Source of the DNA: an uncultured Ignavibacteria bacterium
GTDB taxonomy: Bacteria; Bacteroidota; Ignavibacteria; Tepidaquicellales; OLB5
Direction: 5' to 3'
DNA: 64,000 bases
NCBI GenBank assembly: GCA_937873695.1
Contig: CALMYL010000004.1
Coordinates: forward strand, 1 to 64,000
Below, piece by piece: positions 6,022-35,683 of the stretch (its first letter is position 1; each line of letters starts with the position of its first letter). The notes under the pieces were generated by a model, which was given only the letters and a program-made list of their open reading frames with translations, had not been told where the DNA came from and did no database searches. The translations under genes were made by a program, and so were the position numbers.

Positions 6022-7155
6022 ATGCTGCTTAAACATCTCTACATACTTCCCCTTTTGTTTATCCTGGTTTGCGTAAGAACGCTCAGCCAGCAGATTTCAT
6101 CTGATGAATTGACCCCTGATAAGATATTCGAGAAGGTAGATAACTCAATTGTCGTAATAATTGCTTATGATAATTTAGGTAATATGTTCCAGGGCTCAGG
6201 CGTTGTTATAAGCGACGGGATAATTGTAACGAATCACCATGTTTGCAAAGATGCCAGCCGGATAGAGATAAAACACTACGCCAAAGAGATCAAGAATGTT
6301 GAAATATTAAAATCCGATGAAGTAAAGGATTTACTTTTTCTTAAAACCGATGACTTTACTCTTACTCCCATAACATATGGTAACAGCGAAAATTTAAGAT
6401 CCGGGCAAAGGATATATGCGGTAGGTTCGCCGGAAGGCTATGAAAACTCCATTTCAGAAGGTATCGTAAGTGGCTTCAGAACAAATGAGAATAACGTTAA
6501 GCTTGTTCAGATGACCTGCCCCATTACAGACGGCTCTTCAGGAGGTGCGGTTCTGAATGCCCGTGGTGAGCTTATCGGCCTTAGCGTCAGCGGGCAGCAC
6601 GAAGGAGCGCTTTATTTTGCCATCCCCGTAAATGATATACTGGCAATGATAGGGATGGAAAACTCATACGCTGAATTCACCGACCCTGTGAAATACTACG
6701 AAATTGGCACCCAGGCAAATGAGAATAAAAATTACAGGGATGCCGAAGTGTATTTTTCCAAATACATTGAAAAATTCTCAGGCGATGCCACAGCTTATTA
6801 CAAACGCGGTTATGCAAGGTTTAAGCTAAAGGAATACAAACAGGCAATAAAAGATTTTTCAACAGTTCTTGAAAAAAGCGAAACTTCAGAGTCCTTTTTT
6901 TACCGTGGAAATTGCTACTATTCACTAAAAGATTATAAAAACGCTCTGACAGATTATACCAAAGCTCTGGTACAGGAGCCCGATAATTACGATATTTACT
7001 ACAATCGCGGCTATGCAAATTTCAGGCTGAAAAATTACATTGAAGCAGCAAGTGACTGGAATAAAGCAATTGAATTGAACCCTGAATACGAAAGCGAGCT
7101 ATCAGTAAAAATAAAGATCGCGCAGGATGAATCTAATATCAAAAAGACAAAATAA
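6022..7155 (+). CDS. HtrA/trypsin-like serine protease with C-terminal TPR repeats
   Basis: The 377-residue protein has a signal peptide (about 1-22) and a trypsin-fold protease domain (about 32-215). The catalytic triad can be placed: His73 in VTNHHV, Asp103 in KDLLFLK, and Ser173 in GSSGG. Residues about 225-370 form at least three or four TPRs, with AYYKRGYARFKLKEYKQAIKDF and its copies. DegP/HtrA proteins normally carry PDZ domains here; none is visible. The TPRs could select substrates or partners in the periplasm. A good Shine-Dalgarno (GGAGG) and a strong promoter precede it. Its stop overlaps the start of a 34-residue ORF. Confidence 0.85.
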   Translation: MLLKHLYILPLLFILVCVRTLSQQISSDELTPDKIFEKVDNSIVVIIAYDNLGNMFQGSGVVISDGIIVTNHHVCKDASRIEIKHYAKEIKNVEILKSDEVKDLLFLKTDDFTLTPITYGNSENLRSGQRIYAVGSPEGYENSISEGIVSGFRTNENNVKLVQMTCPITDGSSGGAVLNARGELIGLSVSGQHEGALYFAIPVNDILAMIGMENSYAEFTDPVKYYEIGTQANENKNYRDAEVYFSKYIEKFSGDATAYYKRGYARFKLKEYKQAIKDFSTVLEKSETSESFFYRGNCYYSLKDYKNALTDYTKALVQEPDNYDIYYNRGYANFRLKNYIEAASDWNKAIELNPEYESELSVKIKIAQDESNIKKTK

Positions 7156-7259
7156 TGTTCCCTAACAGACTAAGAAGCTCAAACCAATTCTATATTCTGT
7201 TCGGTATATTGATACTTACTGTTATTTTAGTAGGATTATATATAGGATTTCTGAAGTGA
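7155..7259 (+). CDS. 34-residue single-pass membrane peptide
   Basis: The start overlaps the stop of the protease gene (TAATG), which suggests translational coupling. The predicted peptide is MFPNRLRSSNQFYILFGILI and continues as one hydrophobic helix to GFLK at the end. A short basic or polar N-terminus plus one membrane span is the whole protein. A similar 26-residue ORF lies at 10372. Function is unknown; a small accessory subunit of the protease is one possibility. Confidence 0.45.
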   Translation: MFPNRLRSSNQFYILFGILILTVILVGLYIGFLK

Positions 7260-7334
7260 TCCGATCCTGTATATTCATTATTAGATATATAAAATGACCC
7301 TCCCTAGGAATTCTAACCAATTCACGCAACAACC

Positions 7335-7622
7335 ATGCAATTCATATATTTCATAAGGCCGCATAAGGAAAATTTCGCCGAAACTATGACCGAAGAAGAA
7401 GGCAATATTATGGGTACGCATTTTATGTACCTGCAGGAATTGCTTAAAGCGGGAAAGTTAATTTTGGCAGGACCCGAAACAACCGGGAAATTCGGTATTT
7501 CTATAATAGAAACCGAATCGGAAGATGAAGCAAGGGAAATCATGTTGAATGACCCTGCGGTGAAATCTGGCATTGTATCACCCGAATTGTACCCATACCG
7601 CGTTAGCCTGATAAGGAAGTAA
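7335..7622 (+). CDS. YciI-like protein
   Basis: The 95-residue protein matches the YCII-related family in length and pattern: a hydrophobic first strand (FIYFIRP), HFMYLQELLKAGKLILAGP in the middle, and EAREIMLNDPAVKSGIV near the end. These are small ferredoxin-like-fold cytoplasmic proteins; some act as dehalogenase-like or monooxygenase-like enzymes, and most are uncharacterised. It stands alone, converging on msrB with a shared hairpin terminator between them. Confidence 0.8.
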   Translation: MQFIYFIRPHKENFAETMTEEEGNIMGTHFMYLQELLKAGKLILAGPETTGKFGISIIETESEDEAREIMLNDPAVKSGIVSPELYPYRVSLIRK

Positions 7623-7680
7623 TTTTGGAATGCACTGACTGTGTTAGTGCAGGTATCAATGCAGTTGATTCACTTGAAAC
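7623..7680. repeat. dispersed double-hairpin repeat, copy A
   Basis: The stretch contains GCACTGACTGTGTTAGTGC followed by ATCAATGCAGTTGAT, two adjacent hairpins. Related sequence occurs at 47001-47068 and 47746-47801. Confidence 0.6.
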
Positions 7681-7737
7681 TTCTCTAAAGCCCTTCACAC
7701 AGAAAATAGTATTCATAAAGCAAAGCCAACAATAAAA

Positions 7738-7764
7738 AAGCACAGTTAAAATTCCACTGTGCTT
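7738..7764. terminator. bidirectional terminator between yciI-like gene and msrB
   Basis: AAGCACAGT and ACTGTGCTT form a nine-base stem around a short loop. An A-run precedes it and a T-run follows it, so it can end transcription from both converging genes. Confidence 0.8.
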
Positions 7765-7816
7765 AAATTTTTAATTCGAGATAACCGATTACATACCACT
7801 CCTACTCAACAACAAG

Positions 7817-8338
7817 CTACTCATCTTTCTTCTTAAAATCCAGCGCTGCTGAATTCATACAGTATCTCAGGCGGGTTGGATTCGGGCCGTCATCAAATAC
7901 ATGTCCTAAATGCGCGCCGCAATTTGAGCATACTACCTCAGTCCGTTTCATGCCCAATGTTTCGTCAGTTTCTTCCTTCACATTTTCATCTTTAATTGGC
8001 TTAAAAAAGCTGGGCCATCCTGTTCCGGACTCAAATTTGGTATCACTGCTGAAGAGCTCCTGACCGCATACTATGCAGGCATACTTACCTTCATCGTGGT
8101 TATCCCAATACTTGTTATTGAACGGGCGTTCAGTCCCCTTTTCCTGTGTTACTTTGTACTGCTCATCTGTGAGCTTTTCTTTTAATTCTTCTTTACTCAT
8201 GACAGGTTTAAATTCTCCGCAAATGTTTGTGGAATCAGTTTGTTTTGTTAATAGCTGCTCATGTATTGCCACCCTGCCGGGCTTATCACCACAGCCGGTT
8301 AGCATAAAAATTGATAATATTGCTGCTAATATACTCAT
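7817..8338 (-). CDS. msrB: peptide methionine-R-sulfoxide reductase, lipoprotein form
   Basis: The enzyme reduces methionine-R-sulfoxide in proteins. The zinc-binding pairs CIVC and CSNC, the GTGWPSF core, and the catalytic Cys in RYCMNSAAL are all present. The ATG at 8338 gives the N-terminus [19 protein letters not shown], a lipoprotein signal with lipobox LTGC, so the protein is probably tethered in the periplasm or outer membrane. A longer reading frame from a TTG at 8374 was not used because it overlaps the TAnnTTTG promoter element at 8372-8379. It lacks the MsrA domain that is often fused to MsrB. Confidence 0.92.
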
Positions 8339-29364: not shown

Positions 29365-29400
29365 ATGTTAGAACAACAATTAATGATTAGCAGTTTCAAA

Positions 29401-29606: not shown

Positions 29607-29807
29607 TTAAGCCGCTGTTTCTTCCGCCAGAGTTCTTTTATTTCTTCTGATTGCTTTAGCCTTTTTCATGCGTTTTTTTATTGATGGCTTTACAAAAAAG
29701 CCTCTTTTGCGAACTTCTTTTAAAACGCCGGCTTTTTCATACTTCTTTTTGAATCTTTTTAAGACTTTATCTATAGATTCATTGTCCTGCAGTGTTACTT
29801 TGATCAA
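29607..29807 (-). CDS. rpsU: 30S ribosomal protein S21
   Basis: The 66-residue basic protein has the S21 pattern: VTLQDNESIDKVLKRFKKKYEKAGVLKEVRKRGFF, then a Lys/Arg-rich helix (KPSIKKRMKKAKAIRRNK). S21 helps 30S initiation. In Bacteroidota the 16S anti-SD is sequestered partly by S21 and related proteins, so it may shape start selection here. It has its own promoter and terminator. Confidence 0.96.
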   Translation of the reverse strand: MIKVTLQDNESIDKVLKRFKKKYEKAGVLKEVRKRGFFVKPSIKKRMKKAKAIRRNKRTLAEETAA

Positions 29808-29842
29808 GTTTTTATCACCCCTTTATTATGGATTTTAGCTTA

Positions 29843-29850
29843 CAAATATA
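29843..29850 (-). promoter_or_regulatory. -7 element of rpsU
   Basis: Plus-strand caaatata is the complement of TATATTTG, 36 bp upstream of the rpsU ATG. Confidence 0.6.
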
Positions 29851-29943
29851 AGAATTTTATAATTTAAAATCTATATAAGCCGTAATGAGTAATTTTTGGT
29901 TACAGAATGATTTAAAAGCAAAAATCTAACCAACTTACAAAAA

Positions 29944-30110
29944 GCGCAAGTCAGGCGAATTTCACGAATTTCGCGAATTTCAAGCCAGCTTAAAAGAGCG
30001 GAGTACCTTACCTTAATTAATCGAAGCTTTTAGAAAGAAGAAGATTCTTAGTGAATAAGCTCCCCTTCCTACTTAAGGAGGGGAAATCCCGCTTTAGCGG
30101 GATGGGGTGG
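29944..30110. repeat. repeat-rich left edge of the accessory patch
   Basis: The 528 bp between rpsU and the next gene have no supportable ORF. They contain a triple iteration of gaatttcacgaatttcgcg (about 29960-29980), TCCCCTTCCT...AAGGAGGGGA (30061-30083) and ATCCCGCTTTAGCGGGAT (30087-30103) followed by ggggtgg, the same modules as at 14890-14960. Confidence 0.6.
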
Positions 30111-30335
30111 TTTCTTGCTTATGAGTAGGAAGAGGAATGTTTTAACCTGTGTATCGTAAGGAAGGTAGTTCTGGATTGAAAAGGACTCGCGAAAAACACT
30201 CAAAAAAGGCTTAGTCTAGTACGGCTAAGAGTAAAATATATAACTTGATGCACTAATATTTTATTACTTGATTATACTTAACTTATTAGTTATTTTTTGT
30301 TTTTAATATTGCCATTAATATATTGACAAACCATT

Positions 30336-31361
30336 ATGTCAAAAACACTACTCTACTATCCTTCAATAAATATTCCTAATAAAAATTGGGCTATAAATTC
30401 GATTTTGTATGCTGATAAGATCTCAACCATTTTGCCATTTGATAACATGAATGATGACAGAATTTCTAGTATACTTAAAGAATTATACGCGGAAGGAATA
30501 TATGAACCATTTTTCATTGAAAATGAATTAAGTGAGAACAGGAAACTAAAACAGAATCTAAAGTTTTTCGAAAATGAGTTTATTAGCACTATAAAGTCAA
30601 ACGAATTCAAACAATTCAAAAGAAATTACTTACGGACAAATAACAGGAAAATGGAAGATAGTTTGATCTACAAGAATAAACTTACAGACAATGTAAAAGA
30701 CTTTTTAAAGAATGAAAATTTGCTCCAAGTATCCAGTCAAGAAGAAGTATTTGTTGACCGATTTGCTTCTGTTTATTACTTATGCAAGTTGTCACAATTT
30801 CTGTCTAGTTCAAATAATAATTATACAGTACCTTGCACAGATAATTTTGAATTTGAAGATATTTGTTTTACTCCTAATATTAAGACAAAATCAAGTTCAG
30901 CATTAAGAATAAGAATTAATGAGTGTTTGCCCTCAATTGACGAGAATACGCCAATTAAAAAAATCATAAAATTCAAAAAGAAGCGTGAATCGGATTTACT
31001 GAATTTCAATAACGAAATAACAGATGTAATAAATGACATTGCAAAACTACCTGTAGATGAGCATGATTCCCAAATAGAGAAATTCAACAATAGGATAAGG
31101 TCTGTACAACTTGAAATGAAAAAGTTATTTAAATCTGATTGGAAGACTTACCTGTATAGATCATTAAGTTCTTTACTTCATTCATTGCCCATAGTTATAG
31201 AAGCTTCAAAATATCAAGCAATCCCCTCTAGCATTAGCAGTCCGGTAATAATGATAACTTATACAACGATATCTACGCTTTTATCGAATTCAAATAGTGA
31301 CTCTAAGGATAAGACCTTAAGCTACGTACATTATGTTAATAAGAAATTTAAGACTAAATGA
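30336..31361 (+). CDS. DUF6236-like protein of unknown function
   Basis: The 341-residue protein begins LLYYPSINIPNKNWAINSIL, followed by ADKISTILP, which matches the start of the DUF6236 family as I know it (YYP, W, ILYWDK, IVP). The middle is strongly charged and helical (residues about 210-270, likely coiled coil). A small-residue hydrophobic segment (ASKYQAIPSSISSPVIMITY) lies near the end. No catalytic motif is recognised. Its last four bases overlap the start of the nucleotidyltransferase gene (ATGA), so the two are coupled. It is visibly AT-richer than flanking genes. The function is not known, and the family link is moderate. Confidence 0.6.
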   Translation: MSKTLLYYPSINIPNKNWAINSILYADKISTILPFDNMNDDRISSILKELYAEGIYEPFFIENELSENRKLKQNLKFFENEFISTIKSNEFKQFKRNYLRTNNRKMEDSLIYKNKLTDNVKDFLKNENLLQVSSQEEVFVDRFASVYYLCKLSQFLSSSNNNYTVPCTDNFEFEDICFTPNIKTKSSSALRIRINECLPSIDENTPIKKIIKFKKKRESDLLNFNNEITDVINDIAKLPVDEHDSQIEKFNNRIRSVQLEMKKLFKSDWKTYLYRSLSSLLHSLPIVIEASKYQAIPSSISSPVIMITYTTISTLLSNSNSDSKDKTLSYVHYVNKKFKTK

Positions 31362-32110
31362 AAAAGACGCTAATAATGCTTGCTGGTGGACTAAGTTCAA
31401 GATTTCAGGATTTAGGAGATAAACCCAAATGTTTATTACAATTGTACGATAAATCAATTTTACAAAGACTAGTTGAGTTTTTTCAAAAAAAGGAATACTC
31501 TGTAATATTATCATTAGGACACTTATCTGAGGAAGTTATATCATTCAAAAAGAAGTCAAATTTATATTTTGCACATAGAATTGAATCAAAACCTTTAGGG
31601 ACTGCAGGGGCGATTAAATTTGCTTCTGATGGAGTCGAAAGTGACAATTTCATAATAATAAATGCTGATACTATTAATAATTATTCTATGTTAGATGAAG
31701 CACTATTCTTCCACAATGAACGTAACCATAAAATTACACAATTAGTAACTAAACAAAGTAATCAGAACCAAGGTACTATACTTGTAGAGGATAATAAAGT
31801 TATAGGCAATCATGAATACGAAGAATCTTTTGATAAACCCAAAAACATTAAGAATTCATTTTCAAGTACCGGCGCGTATATAATAAATAAACAATATTTT
31901 GACAAAATATTTAAGCAGTATGAGAATAAAAAAACAAAAGAAGCAGGTATATCACTTGAAAAAGTTATAATAAAAGAACTTACCAAAAGGAAAGAAGTAA
32001 ATGCATTTAGAATAAAAAGTCATGTTTATGATTTAGGCACAGTTACCAGATACAGAACTTTTTTGGATAAATATGATCAAGAGGTTTTTCAAAATAAATT
32101 TTTATTATAG
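31358..32110 (+). CDS. NDP-sugar-type nucleotidyltransferase
   Basis: The 250-residue protein is a nucleotidyltransferase of the RmlA/HddC/LicC superfamily. It has the nucleotide-binding loop LAGGLSSRF (8-16), the lysine segment KPKCLL (22-27), PLGTAGAI, the metal-site NADTI in place of NGD, and the closing YDLGTVTRYRTF. Such enzymes join NTP to a sugar phosphate, phosphocholine or a phosphonate. The substrate cannot be assigned. Its length suits a single-domain enzyme without hexapeptide repeats. It overlaps the upstream gene by 4 bp and is 2 bp from the downstream dioxygenase gene. AT-rich like both. Confidence 0.85.
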   Translation: MKKTLIMLAGGLSSRFQDLGDKPKCLLQLYDKSILQRLVEFFQKKEYSVILSLGHLSEEVISFKKKSNLYFAHRIESKPLGTAGAIKFASDGVESDNFIIINADTINNYSMLDEALFFHNERNHKITQLVTKQSNQNQGTILVEDNKVIGNHEYEESFDKPKNIKNSFSSTGAYIINKQYFDKIFKQYENKKTKEAGISLEKVIIKELTKRKEVNAFRIKSHVYDLGTVTRYRTFLDKYDQEVFQNKFLL

Positions 32111-32112
32111 TT

Positions 32113-32850
32113 TTGTCATTGGCGACTAAATCACTATCCATACAGCAAATTCAGCACTTTAGGAATTCAGGCTATTTAAAACTCGAAAAAAGAATACCTA
32201 ATGTTCTAGTTAATAACTTGATAAATGAAATTAATAAGAACTTGCGTTTACGCTTATCTCCATTGCATGAACACGACAATGGGGTGATTTATAGATTAGA
32301 TAACGTATATGAACGTGGAGAAATATTCAAAAAGTTAGTCAAACATCCTTTTATTATTAATTCCCTGACATCCTTATTAGGTCCGAATATAGAATTCGCA
32401 CTTAATAGACATAATCATGCGACAGTTAATAGAATTACTAATAGAAGATTCCATAGGGACATATTGCAATGGACAAGATCAGTCATTACAGTATTAGTCT
32501 ATTTAGAAAAATCAACTTTGGAAAATGGATGTACAGAAATTATACCTTCTTCCCAATACTTACCTTATTCAGGTAAACCAAATAACGGTGGCACGTGGTT
32601 AGACGAAGACTCAAGATATGCAGATCTGATAAATCAGGCAATTCCTATTCCAATGGAAAAAGGCGGAATATTATTTTTAGATAGTCTCACTTTTCATTCT
32701 GTTGGTAAAAATATTTCCAACAATTCTAGGATGAGTATTGCATTAGGGTATCATAGTGTTGATGAACTAATCGGAGACAATCATAAGAAAACTAAAATTC
32801 TAGTCAAAGGAAAAAGAATTTACCGAGGAAATATCAAATTTGAGGAATAA
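32113..32850 (+). CDS. PhyH-family Fe(II)/2-oxoglutarate dioxygenase
   Basis: The 245-residue protein has the iron-binding facial triad of phytanoyl-CoA dioxygenases: His114 and Asp116 in RFHRD, and distal His195 in FHSVGKN, with the 2-oxoglutarate-binding Arg206 in NSRMSI. The loop LENGCTEIIPSSQYLP corresponds to the family's NGx-xxPGSH segment. It begins at a TTG two bases after the previous stop; no ATG gives the full N-terminal helix QQIQHFRNSGYLKL. PhyH enzymes hydroxylate small molecules or cleave phosphonates. With the adjacent nucleotidyltransferase it may modify an activated sugar or phosphonate; that is inference. Confidence 0.85.
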   Translation: MSLATKSLSIQQIQHFRNSGYLKLEKRIPNVLVNNLINEINKNLRLRLSPLHEHDNGVIYRLDNVYERGEIFKKLVKHPFIINSLTSLLGPNIEFALNRHNHATVNRITNRRFHRDILQWTRSVITVLVYLEKSTLENGCTEIIPSSQYLPYSGKPNNGGTWLDEDSRYADLINQAIPIPMEKGGILFLDSLTFHSVGKNISNNSRMSIALGYHSVDELIGDNHKKTKILVKGKRIYRGNIKFEE

Positions 32851-32890
32851 TAAGAAAACCCTTCTTCTATCTAAGCAATTTTCAAATCAT

Positions 32891-33106
32891 CTATTGACCT
32901 ATCCATCTCTGTTTTGCAACTATTATTTTCTGGGAATGCAGGATATCATCAATTTCTAGGGTCCTCACTTTACAGTCTTTCAGCCATTTTTAAGCCAACT
33001 GGTATTCAATTCCTTTCTGCTGCAGGTCACCCCTGAAAGTGTGTTCAGTTGCATTGCCAAGCCTGTAGTGTTTATTGATGCTTTCTATGTATTGTTCTAT
33101 TGTCAT
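32891..33106 (-). pseudogene. collapsed type ISP/IIG restriction-modification gene
   Basis: From the ATG at 33106 the minus strand reads MTIEQYIESINKHYRLGNAT and goes on to EHTFRGDLQQ, the N-terminus of fused nuclease-methylase enzymes of the LlaBIII/type ISP kind, before a stop at 32990. Shifting frame, the following bases read KWLKDCKVRTLEIDDILHSQ and KIIVAKQRW, which match the usual last residues of the same enzymes (KWLKDRKGRTLSxDDIxHYQKIVVAL). So both ends survive and roughly the whole 1000-plus-residue middle, with the methylase motifs, has been deleted. It lies beside the AT-rich cassette. Confidence 0.65.
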
Positions 33107-33216
33107 TTTAATAAGGCAATAAGCTCATATTTATTTATAAGTAAATAATATATTTATGCATATTAATTGACATATTTATATAAATCAATACATTAAAGTT
33201 TTCATACCTGAAGAGC

Positions 33217-33480
33217 CCTCAATCCCGCTTAAGCAGAAACACGGGACTGCAAAAAGCGCAGAAAACGAGAGACTCTGCGTAGACGTAAAAAATTGCAGAA
33301 ATACCCCCTCTCAATCTCCCATTGACAGGGGGAGAAGAGCCCGCCTTGGGCGGGCGAAGTAGGGGTAATTGTAATTCTGCGGTGACGGTTAACACTAATC
33401 GTTCAATAGAAATTGAGTAAAATTTTATTGTCCTCTGCTTGTTTTTGCCATCCCAAACAGGAGTTTGGGATGGAGGTATA
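33217..33480. repeat. intergenic palindromes downstream of the R-M relic
   Basis: The stretch contains CCCCCTC...GAGGGGG-type pairing at about 33303-33332, GCCCGCCTTGGGCGGGC (33339-33356) and CCCAAAC...GTTTGGG at 33454-33471. These are the same kinds of module as at 14890 and 30061. No gene is supported. Confidence 0.6.
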
Positions 33481-33493
33481 CGGGGTAGAATCT

Positions 33494-33713
33494 TTCTCAC
33501 TATGAATATTCATAATGAGAATTTTCACGTTTTTAAAGTGGTGAAATTTCAATCCATTCTCACTATGATTCTCACGGAGAAACCATTCTCAACATGAATA
33601 TATTCATAATGAGAAAATTACAAATAAGAAAAACAGGCTATAATCGCAAAAAACTATACCCAAATCCCTCAAAAAAAAATATCGCTTTCATCGTGAGAAT
33701 CATAATGCGAAAA
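33494..33713. repeat. cluster of TTCTCA...TGAGAA palindromes
   Basis: A near-perfect palindrome TTCTCACTATGAAT-ATTCATAATGAGAA occupies 33494-33521. A second with two extra central bases lies at 33586-33615 (TTCTCAACATGAAT...). Partial copies lie at 33557-33581 and, in the other orientation, 33687-33713. A different palindrome, TTTTCACG...GTGGTGAAAT, sits between the first two at 33522-33547. The space to 33925 is otherwise low-complexity (caactataaactatcaa). Confidence 0.8.
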
Positions 33714-33925
33714 AATAAGCTGCCAACTGAAACCAATATAGTATAAATCTGTTTAACTCATTAAACCATCAGCAATTTAACTAACATCTATCAACTTTAA
33801 ACTGTCAACTATAAACTATCAATTATCAACTAAAACCTAGCCAAAACTGCCTTGAAACTCACGTTAATAATAGCTAAAATTGAGATTAATCCTAAGAAAA
33901 ATTAATTAAAAATATATCATATTTA

Positions 33926-35683
33926 ATGAATAAAATGAATAAATTCAAAATGTACGGAATTTTATTAGTTATTGCCATGCTGGCTTTTTCAGCATCTAAC
34001 TGCAATAAGGCCAACAAAACCCTTGTGGATATCGGAAGCGATAAGATCACACTTGGTGAGTTTGAAAAACAGTATTTAAAGACTGTTGGTAATATTGATA
34101 CCGCAAGAAACAAGTCTATAGAGGATAAAAAACAGTTCCTGAACCTATACATAAATTTCAGGCTTAAAGTGAAAGATGCCCGCGAGCGCGGACTGCTTAA
34201 TAATCCTGATATTCAGAAGGATGTAGAAGAATATAAAAGAAATTTCGCTCCAACATACCTTGTTGATAAAGAAATAGTAAGTACTAAGGTAAAGGAGCTT
34301 TACGAAAAAAGAAAAGATGAAGTACGCGCTTCGCATATACTTATAAATCTCCCGGAAAACGCATCGCCGCAGGATTCAATTTTCGCTTACCAGAAGGCTG
34401 ATTCAGTTATTGCCAAGCTTAAAGCCGGTGAAGATTTCGGCGAAGTAGCCGTTCAGTATTCCATGGATAGAACTGTTAAAACAAACCGCGGAGACCTTTA
34501 TTACTTTACCGCCGGAATGACAGTTCCTGAATTTGAAGATGCAGTTTACGATCTGAGCGTAGGCGACTATACCAAAAAGCCTGTAAGAACAATGTTCGGG
34601 CTGCATATAATAAAACTGACAGACCGCAAACCAAGAACGGAATCAGTTAAAATTTCACATATACTTCTTCAGGATAAACGCGACAGTATCGGTAACGTAA
34701 TTGATTCACTTGCAACCTACCAGAAAGCGCTTGAAGTATATAATAAAGCTAAAAATGGAGACAGCTTTGAAGGGCTCGTTCAGCAGTACTCCGAAGACGC
34801 AGGTTCAAAAACGCAGAATGGCGACCTGGGCAACGTTGAAAGAAGAAGGCTTGCACAGCCTATAGATTCAGCCGCCTTTACAATGGGCGTTGGCGATGTT
34901 GCCGGACCGATCAGGACTCCATATGGATGGCATATCGTGAAGAAATTCGGTGAGAAAAAAGTTGGTTCGCTTGAAAAAGAATTCGAAACAATCAAGAATG
35001 AATTCAAAAAAACCAAAGCATACAAAGATGAATATGCCAAGTTTGTTGAAACATTAAAGGGAAAATACAGTTATAAGATATTACAGGAAGGCATAACATT
35101 CCTGAAAGGTAAGCTTGATACAACAAAAACTATAGCGGATTTCAATTTAGATAGCCTTTTCACTCCGCAGGATAAAGAAGTTATACTCGCATCATACGAT
35201 GGCGGACAGGTAAAAGTCGCCGATATGATAAATCACCTTAACATTAACCGTGATTTCGCGCGGATGGTGCTTAATGAACAGACATTGACAGCAATTATCA
35301 ATTCATCTGCAGAAAGTCCGATACTTAACAAAAAAGCAAAGGACTCTAACATAGAAAAAGACGATGAATATATTGCAAGCATAACCGACTATGAAAACGG
35401 ACTGCTTGTTTTCAGGATCGATCAGGATGAACTGTGGAGCAAAGTTAAAATAAACGACGCGGAGCTTTCAACATATTATGAATCTAATAAGTCCAAATAC
35501 ACCAAGACTGACTCAACCGGAAAACCGGTTATGAAAACACTGGATGAATCAAAGGCTGAAATTTCCAACGAACTGCAGCAGCTGAAGTATAAGGATTCCG
35601 AAAAGGCGTATCTTGATGCACTAAGAGCCAAATATCCTGTAACAATTCATGAAGATATTCTGGCTGAGGCTTTTAAGGATTAA
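33926..35683 (+). CDS. lipoprotein peptidyl-prolyl isomerase with two PpiC domains
   Basis: The 585-residue protein has a lipoprotein signal with Cys near residue 26 (SASNC), a SurA-like helical N-domain, and two parvulin domains. The first spans about 132-235 (RASHILI...YSMD...RGDLYYF...PEFEDA...FGLHIIKL), the second about 240-350 (ISHILLQ...YSED...NGDLGNVERRRL...YGWHIVKK). The remaining 230 residues are helical. It should assist folding of outer-membrane or exported proteins in the periplasm. It is followed 90 bp later by a second foldase gene. Confidence 0.9.
   Translation: MNKMNKFKMYGILLVIAMLAFSASNCNKANKTLVDIGSDKITLGEFEKQYLKTVGNIDTARNKSIEDKKQFLNLYINFRLKVKDARERGLLNNPDIQKDVEEYKRNFAPTYLVDKEIVSTKVKELYEKRKDEVRASHILINLPENASPQDSIFAYQKADSVIAKLKAGEDFGEVAVQYSMDRTVKTNRGDLYYFTAGMTVPEFEDAVYDLSVGDYTKKPVRTMFGLHIIKLTDRKPRTESVKISHILLQDKRDSIGNVIDSLATYQKALEVYNKAKNGDSFEGLVQQYSEDAGSKTQNGDLGNVERRRLAQPIDSAAFTMGVGDVAGPIRTPYGWHIVKKFGEKKVGSLEKEFETIKNEFKKTKAYKDEYAKFVETLKGKYSYKILQEGITFLKGKLDTTKTIADFNLDSLFTPQDKEVILASYDGGQVKVADMINHLNINRDFARMVLNEQTLTAIINSSAESPILNKKAKDSNIEKDDEYIASITDYENGLLVFRIDQDELWSKVKINDAELSTYYESNKSKYTKTDSTGKPVMKTLDESKAEISNELQQLKYKDSEKAYLDALRAKYPVTIHEDILAEAFKD

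Follow-up and report, generated by a model that had tools for sequence, protein, structure and literature searches.

HddC, the D-glycero-D-manno-heptose 1-phosphate guanosyltransferase, and mannose-1-phosphate guanylyltransferase are the closest described counterparts of the nucleotidyltransferase (NTase) considered here; they share its fold family and its N-terminal and C-terminal (DxGT) motifs and provide its best profile matches, and HddC, with 225–270 aa and no extra domain, has the same build. The second enzyme of the locus resembles the PhyH hydroxylases, i.e., phytanoyl-CoA hydroxylase, EctD, PrhA/SnoN and EvdO1, in Pfam family, fold, and the invariant HxD...H and Arg residues. A PhyH precedent for a nucleoside-type substrate is offered by PHYHD1/FJS, which are reported to demethylate free 2'-O-methyl nucleosides and not nucleotides (PMC12709175). 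In the literature searched, no description was found of a gene pair consisting of such an NTase and a PhyH enzyme, or of DUF6236, the family of the third gene at the locus; a search for PhyH together with nudix, judged by title, returned nothing on such a pair.

A three-gene cassette at a variable site

The window (the whole stretch of 64,000 nucleotides that was analyzed) carries three cassette genes on the forward strand. The first (30336–31361, 341 aa) was called as an open reading frame and assigned to DUF6236 by Pfam (PF19749, E 1.6e-12, 47.7 bits against a cutoff of 26.2); the match covers only the C-terminal part, residues 188–338, and the N-terminus, LYYPxIxI...ILYWDxI, aligns with that of its relatives. 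The second gene (31358–32110, 250 aa), which overlaps the first by ATGA, encodes a sugar-phosphate-type NTase (PF00483, NTP_transferase, E 1.7e-15, 57.7 bits against 21.2) of a subfamily marked by the motif SS[TS]G. After a 2-bp gap, and from a TTG start, follows the gene for a PhyH-family Fe(II)/2-oxoglutarate dioxygenase (32113–32850, 245 aa; PF05721, E 2e-16, 61.4 bits against 22). The three genes would be co-transcribed, with the DUF6236 gene leading the transcription unit. This arrangement agrees with that given in the first-pass annotation, as does the AT-richness of the cassette, the G+C content being 29.2% for the DUF6236 gene, 27.9% for the NTase gene and 32.1% for the PhyH gene, compared with 38.9% for the whole window and 39–44% for its ftsH, ppiC-like and surA-like genes. 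The repeat clusters placed at the flanks by the same annotation are only partly right: there is a 39-nt repeat in two copies, at 29399 and 29528, and there are inverted repeats at 33557/33686. Intergenic sequence near the cassette is common to the window and one relative. None of the three proteins scores above the cutoff of any NCBIfam model, and PADLOC-DB 2.0.0 returned zero matches for them.

The cassette lies between what we take to be the gene for ribosomal protein S21 (rpsU, 29607..29807, reverse strand) and a gene presumably encoding a ppiC/SurA-like peptidyl-prolyl isomerase (33926..35683, forward strand). The ppiC-like gene was matched in 13 of 13 genomes of the genus, the window's own included, and both flanks are visible in 6/12 genus-mate stretches, the remaining six having a contig end or other sequence where rpsU would be seen. 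In three of the two-flank genus-mates (G373, G212 and G381) the flanks are ~160–175 bases apart, i.e., the site is empty, and in the other three they enclose 3.2 to 6.8 kb of other sequence. The interval (29807–33926 in the window; L149, L150, L152, L154, L156 and L158 in genus-mates) is a variable insertion site in the genus, filled among genus-mates by a type IIG restriction-modification (R-M) gene or by genes for apparently secreted proteins. In G274 (L155:862–7260), reading of the open reading frames upstream of the ppiC-like gene gave a trypsin-like/TPR protein, a WYL-like regulator and an AAA ATPase. The window PhyH was not found in any of the 12 genus-mates at E 1e-3, nor was the window NTase at E 1e-15; given these absences, the low G+C content and a site that is variable and in three genus-mates empty, the cassette is most simply read as an arrival there.

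An R-M relic had also been proposed beside the cassette. In genus-mate G219 an intact type IIG R-M gene of 1083 aa occupies the same site (L150:935–4186), and the window retains a remnant of this gene at 32915..33106 on the reverse strand, so the relic is real. Some 1000 residues have been lost from it; what is left matches residues 1–30 of the intact enzyme at 93% and residues 1037–1066 at 77%, with one stop.

The PhyH clade and its NTase partners

Genome contigs were scanned for PhyH relatives with two short peptides, the query being the PhyH of the window aligned with one from Cupriavidus. The scan gave 414 pattern matches and 317 relatives, the best 80 of which were retained. Two of these 80 are set apart at E 2e-55 and 1e-51 (39–40% identity), the third-ranked protein reaching only E 6e-23; they belong to a Candidatus Saccharibacteria genome (L034, the same locus as L133) and to Micromonospora sp. 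NBRC 107566 (L035, the same locus as L132). Further members were sought in genomes with a three-row PhyH alignment, and clade matches were obtained in 3/345 genomes of the class of Micromonospora and 2/239 of the phylum of L034 (each count including the genome of origin), and in 1/218 of the window's phylum, namely the window alone. The orders of G516 and G822 gave 2/35 and 1/8, all of them already found. The clade thus counted has six members, from the window genome, two Patescibacteria-group genomes (L034 and G822) and three actinobacteria (G516, G461 and Micromonospora), a size that rests on one genome-wide scan with two short peptides and the follow-up genome searches.

In a tree of 84 PhyH rows the six proteins form one side of a 100/100 branch, at which long branches meet. 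Residues H114, D116, H195 and R206, corresponding to the Fe(II) triad HxD...H and the 2-oxoglutarate Arg, are invariant across the clade alignment, and the clade carries the signatures NRHN and NGG. As judged from these comparisons, the clade is rare and deeply diverged. PhyH proteins of the Cupriavidus type were considered as cassette relatives and rejected; their neighbor genes are unrelated, and they fall in the outgroup of the 84-row tree. The G822 PhyH is split in two overlapping frames (L122:7221–7950), which reflects either a disrupted gene or a misassembly. Viral scans with three PhyH queries (window, A5 and A9) produced no confirmed match, and nothing useful came from tblastn of phages with PhyH or of plasmids with the L035 and L120 PhyH.

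An NTase gene is present in the same cluster in five of the six clade loci, i.e., the window, L034/L133, L122 (G822), L120/L131 (G516) and the G461 locus (L121). In L034 the NTase gene (7139–7936) overlaps the PhyH frame, and the gap of 2 bp seen in the window is replaced by an intervening gene in L120, G461 and L122. The order in G516 is PhyH, RelA/SpoT-like gene, NTase, with overlaps. G461 has PhyH and the RelA/SpoT-like gene, followed by the contig end ~200 bases into the NTase, which is split over two contig ends (C40:7118–7312 and C150:6–569) with an identical overlap. In G822 the order is NTase, NUDIX, PhyH. When the six loci were compared all-against-all, opposite-strand matches of these same genes being set aside, only four genes were common to any of them: NTase, PhyH, a NUDIX gene shared by the two loci of the Patescibacteria group (L122/L133, 57%) and the RelA/SpoT-like gene in two actinobacterial loci (L121/L131, 66%). 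The third gene accordingly varies, being DUF6236 in the window, NUDIX in two loci and weakly RelA/SpoT-like in two. A HEPN/Toprim-type protein (weak Pfam match) is encoded upstream of the cassette in G461 (L121:2146–3591).

The sixth locus, in Micromonospora, has DUF5919, PhyH and HAD genes and no cassette-type NTase; a search of the whole genome for the cassette NTase retrieved ordinary ones only (best E 1.2e-9). There the PhyH gene overlaps the DUF5919 gene and the HAD phosphatase gene, and a ribose-phosphate pyrophosphokinase gene lies ~2 kb upstream. This locus possibly represents a related pathway with other partners.

As a control, a profile was built from four cassette NTases, that of L034 included, and applied to the best 80 of the 317 PhyH relatives. 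It matched one of the 80 loci, that of L034, which is a match by construction since the profile contains the L034 NTase. The informative figure is 0/78 for the outgroup PhyH loci, even at E 10, with flanks that vary from locus to locus (median locus 16.6 kb, shortest 3 kb). On this evidence from gene neighborhoods, NTase and PhyH are a conserved unit, beyond chance, and the pair is rare, horizontally spread and undescribed in the literature searched. Of the three-gene cluster first proposed, it is this pair that stands, in 5/6 clade loci versus 0/78 controls, and the set of three that does not.

In the window NTase the motifs of the family, AGG...R, PK, D104 and D225-x-G227-T228, are preserved; they have catalytic roles in this family. 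When 22 NTases were placed in one tree (5 from cassettes, 15 others from the same genomes and 2 from outside), the five cassette NTases form one group with support of 83/83, and do so in 86% of 200 bootstrap trees, counted after two rows had been dropped, L174 (a short G461 piece) and L168 (a short control). This is moderate support, with two rows on long branches, for proteins that are very divergent (17–26% identity to the window NTase). SS[TS]G is present in 5/5 cassette NTases and in 0/17 controls, some of which are cut before that position.

DUF6236 genes on phages and plasmids

None of the other five pair or clade loci contains a DUF6236 gene, and a search for the same trio found DUF6236 beside the pair nowhere else, so that the three-gene set was rejected as a unit. 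Ten DUF6236 loci from elsewhere (3.5–12.7 kb) contain no match to the NTase or the PhyH (0/10). They are found on Priestia, Pusillibacter and Streptomyces plasmids, the second of these beside AIPR and AAA genes; in a plasmid-borne Paracoccus prophage (L033), between apparent structural genes; on three viral contigs, with genes related to that of Paracoccus; in Klebsiella phage Mulock (L130:4620–5468), between integrase and tail fiber; and in two further genomes of the window's phylum, where 3/198 genomes have a match, the window included. The interval from integrase to tail fiber is a usual position for phage accessory genes. These outside loci, mostly phage- or plasmid-borne and all without NTase or PhyH, indicate that the DUF6236 gene is probably independently travelling cargo, separate from the pair. 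Together with the five loci that lack the gene, they speak against the pathway membership first proposed for it.

The window DUF6236 protein has no convincing membrane segment by hydropathy (best 19-residue mean 1.16), and its structure prediction was set aside (mean pLDDT 38). Viral scans with DUF6236 queries from the window, L027 and L026 gave no confirmed match, and phage tblastn with the L004 protein gave nothing useful.

Proposed activity and relation to known systems

On balance, and with moderate confidence, we favor a module of two enzymes that spreads horizontally and whose product is an oxygenated, nucleotide-activated compound. The NTase would act on a phosphorylated small molecule, linking it to a nucleotide; the likeliest candidate is a mannose/heptose-type sugar 1-phosphate or another compound that takes its position in the enzyme. 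The PhyH would hydroxylate or otherwise oxidize this compound with Fe(II), O2 and 2-oxoglutarate, either before or after activation. Other genes would join the pair according to lineage (NUDIX, the weakly RelA/SpoT-like protein, or DUF6236 in the window), the last being separately travelling cargo that happens to lead the transcription unit. A nucleotide-linked product is the predicted common thread of the NTase, the PhyH and the partner genes. The earlier suggestion of an activated compound plus an oxygenation follows from the family identities of the two enzymes.

Scores against specific NCBIfam models are all far under the cutoffs, and a substrate can therefore not be named from them: the window NTase reaches 50.5 bits against 300 for HddC and 36.6 against 440 for mannose-1-phosphate guanylyltransferase, and the window PhyH 32.8 against 336.5 for ectoine hydroxylase and 22.8 against 500 for methylphosphonate hydroxylase. 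Two substrates raised in the first-pass annotation find no support and were rejected. The LicC match to the NTase, which bears on choline, is weak and partial (E 6e-4), and against the phosphonate option stand the methylphosphonate hydroxylase score and the open reading frame lists of the pair loci, in which no phosphonate gene was seen. The solved structures nearest to the window PhyH have the PhyH fold. The window PhyH model is middling (pLDDT 60.5, pTM 0.67), and its Foldseek ranking consequently supports the fold alone.

Among other readings, a conflict module, anti-phage or toxin-like, in which the pair makes or modifies a nucleotide-type signal or toxin, with the third gene as an interchangeable effector or guard, is unlikely in our judgment. 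Partner genes do vary around a fixed NTase and PhyH core, DUF6236 occupies phage-borne cargo positions (the L033 prophage and phage Mulock), and the nearest relatives of the NUDIX partner are ADP-ribose pyrophosphatases; a type IIG R-M gene also stood at the window site, either earlier than the cassette or alongside it, and its relic and the variable site are the whole of the local hint of defense. However, the module proteins have no PADLOC match except a weak, partial one for the RelA/SpoT-like partner (E 2.4e-5), whose similarity to that family is under the Pfam cutoff (PF04607, 20.6 bits in G516 and 20.3 in G461 against 27) and finds no match among solved structures, and the other pair loci lie outside recognizable defense islands, L133 near GT2/GH16 genes and L122, as read from its open reading frames, near heavy-metal-type domains. 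The bolder proposal, an undescribed mobile system built around NTase and PhyH whose product is an oxygenated small molecule linked to a nucleotide, with the changing third gene serving as its exchangeable effector or turnover enzyme in the manner of nucleotide-signal defense, we hold to be decidedly unlikely.

Rather unlikely, too, is a surface-sugar module, in which a GDP- or UDP-activated sugar from the NTase would be hydroxylated by the PhyH for decoration of capsule or LPS. It would suit the NTase profile, whose nearest relatives among solved structures are mannose-1-phosphate guanylyltransferase and HddC-type enzymes, and the family 2 glycosyltransferase and GH16 gene ~2–3 kb upstream of the pair in L034/L133, but no glycosyltransferase adjoins the pair in the window, L120, L121 or L122, which leaves a two-gene unit without a transferase. 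Chance, i.e., three unrelated cargo genes meeting at a variable site, describes the DUF6236 gene well and fits the variability between rpsU and the ppiC-like gene; as an account of the whole cassette it is very improbable, given an NTase beside the clade PhyH in most of the clade loci, in distant bacteria, and in none of the controls.

With the two-enzyme module, what looked like one odd cluster becomes a rare gene pair that recurs in deeply separated bacteria, and the three-gene reading is corrected in that DUF6236 drops out of the pathway. The pair occurs in Patescibacteria-group genomes of ~1 Mb, where any retained accessory gene is notable, and both enzyme families are assayable, so that the product could be found. 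A nucleotide-linked signal or toxin would, if confirmed, be new chemistry for a mobile module, and a sugar product would add a new member to the modified nucleotide sugars.

Compared with the known systems, the DUF6236 relatives differ from the window gene in being solitary, on phages, prophages and plasmids. The PhyH hydroxylases share only ~15–20% identity with the window PhyH over the fold, and the clade PhyH is separate from 78 other rows at 100/100; PHYHD1 (2opw), at E 0.0082, is not a close match. HddC-type enzymes have xNxG near the sugar site, whereas the cassette NTases carry SS[TS]G there, and in place of nearby heptose genes, of which there are none, the cassette NTase is paired with a PhyH gene.
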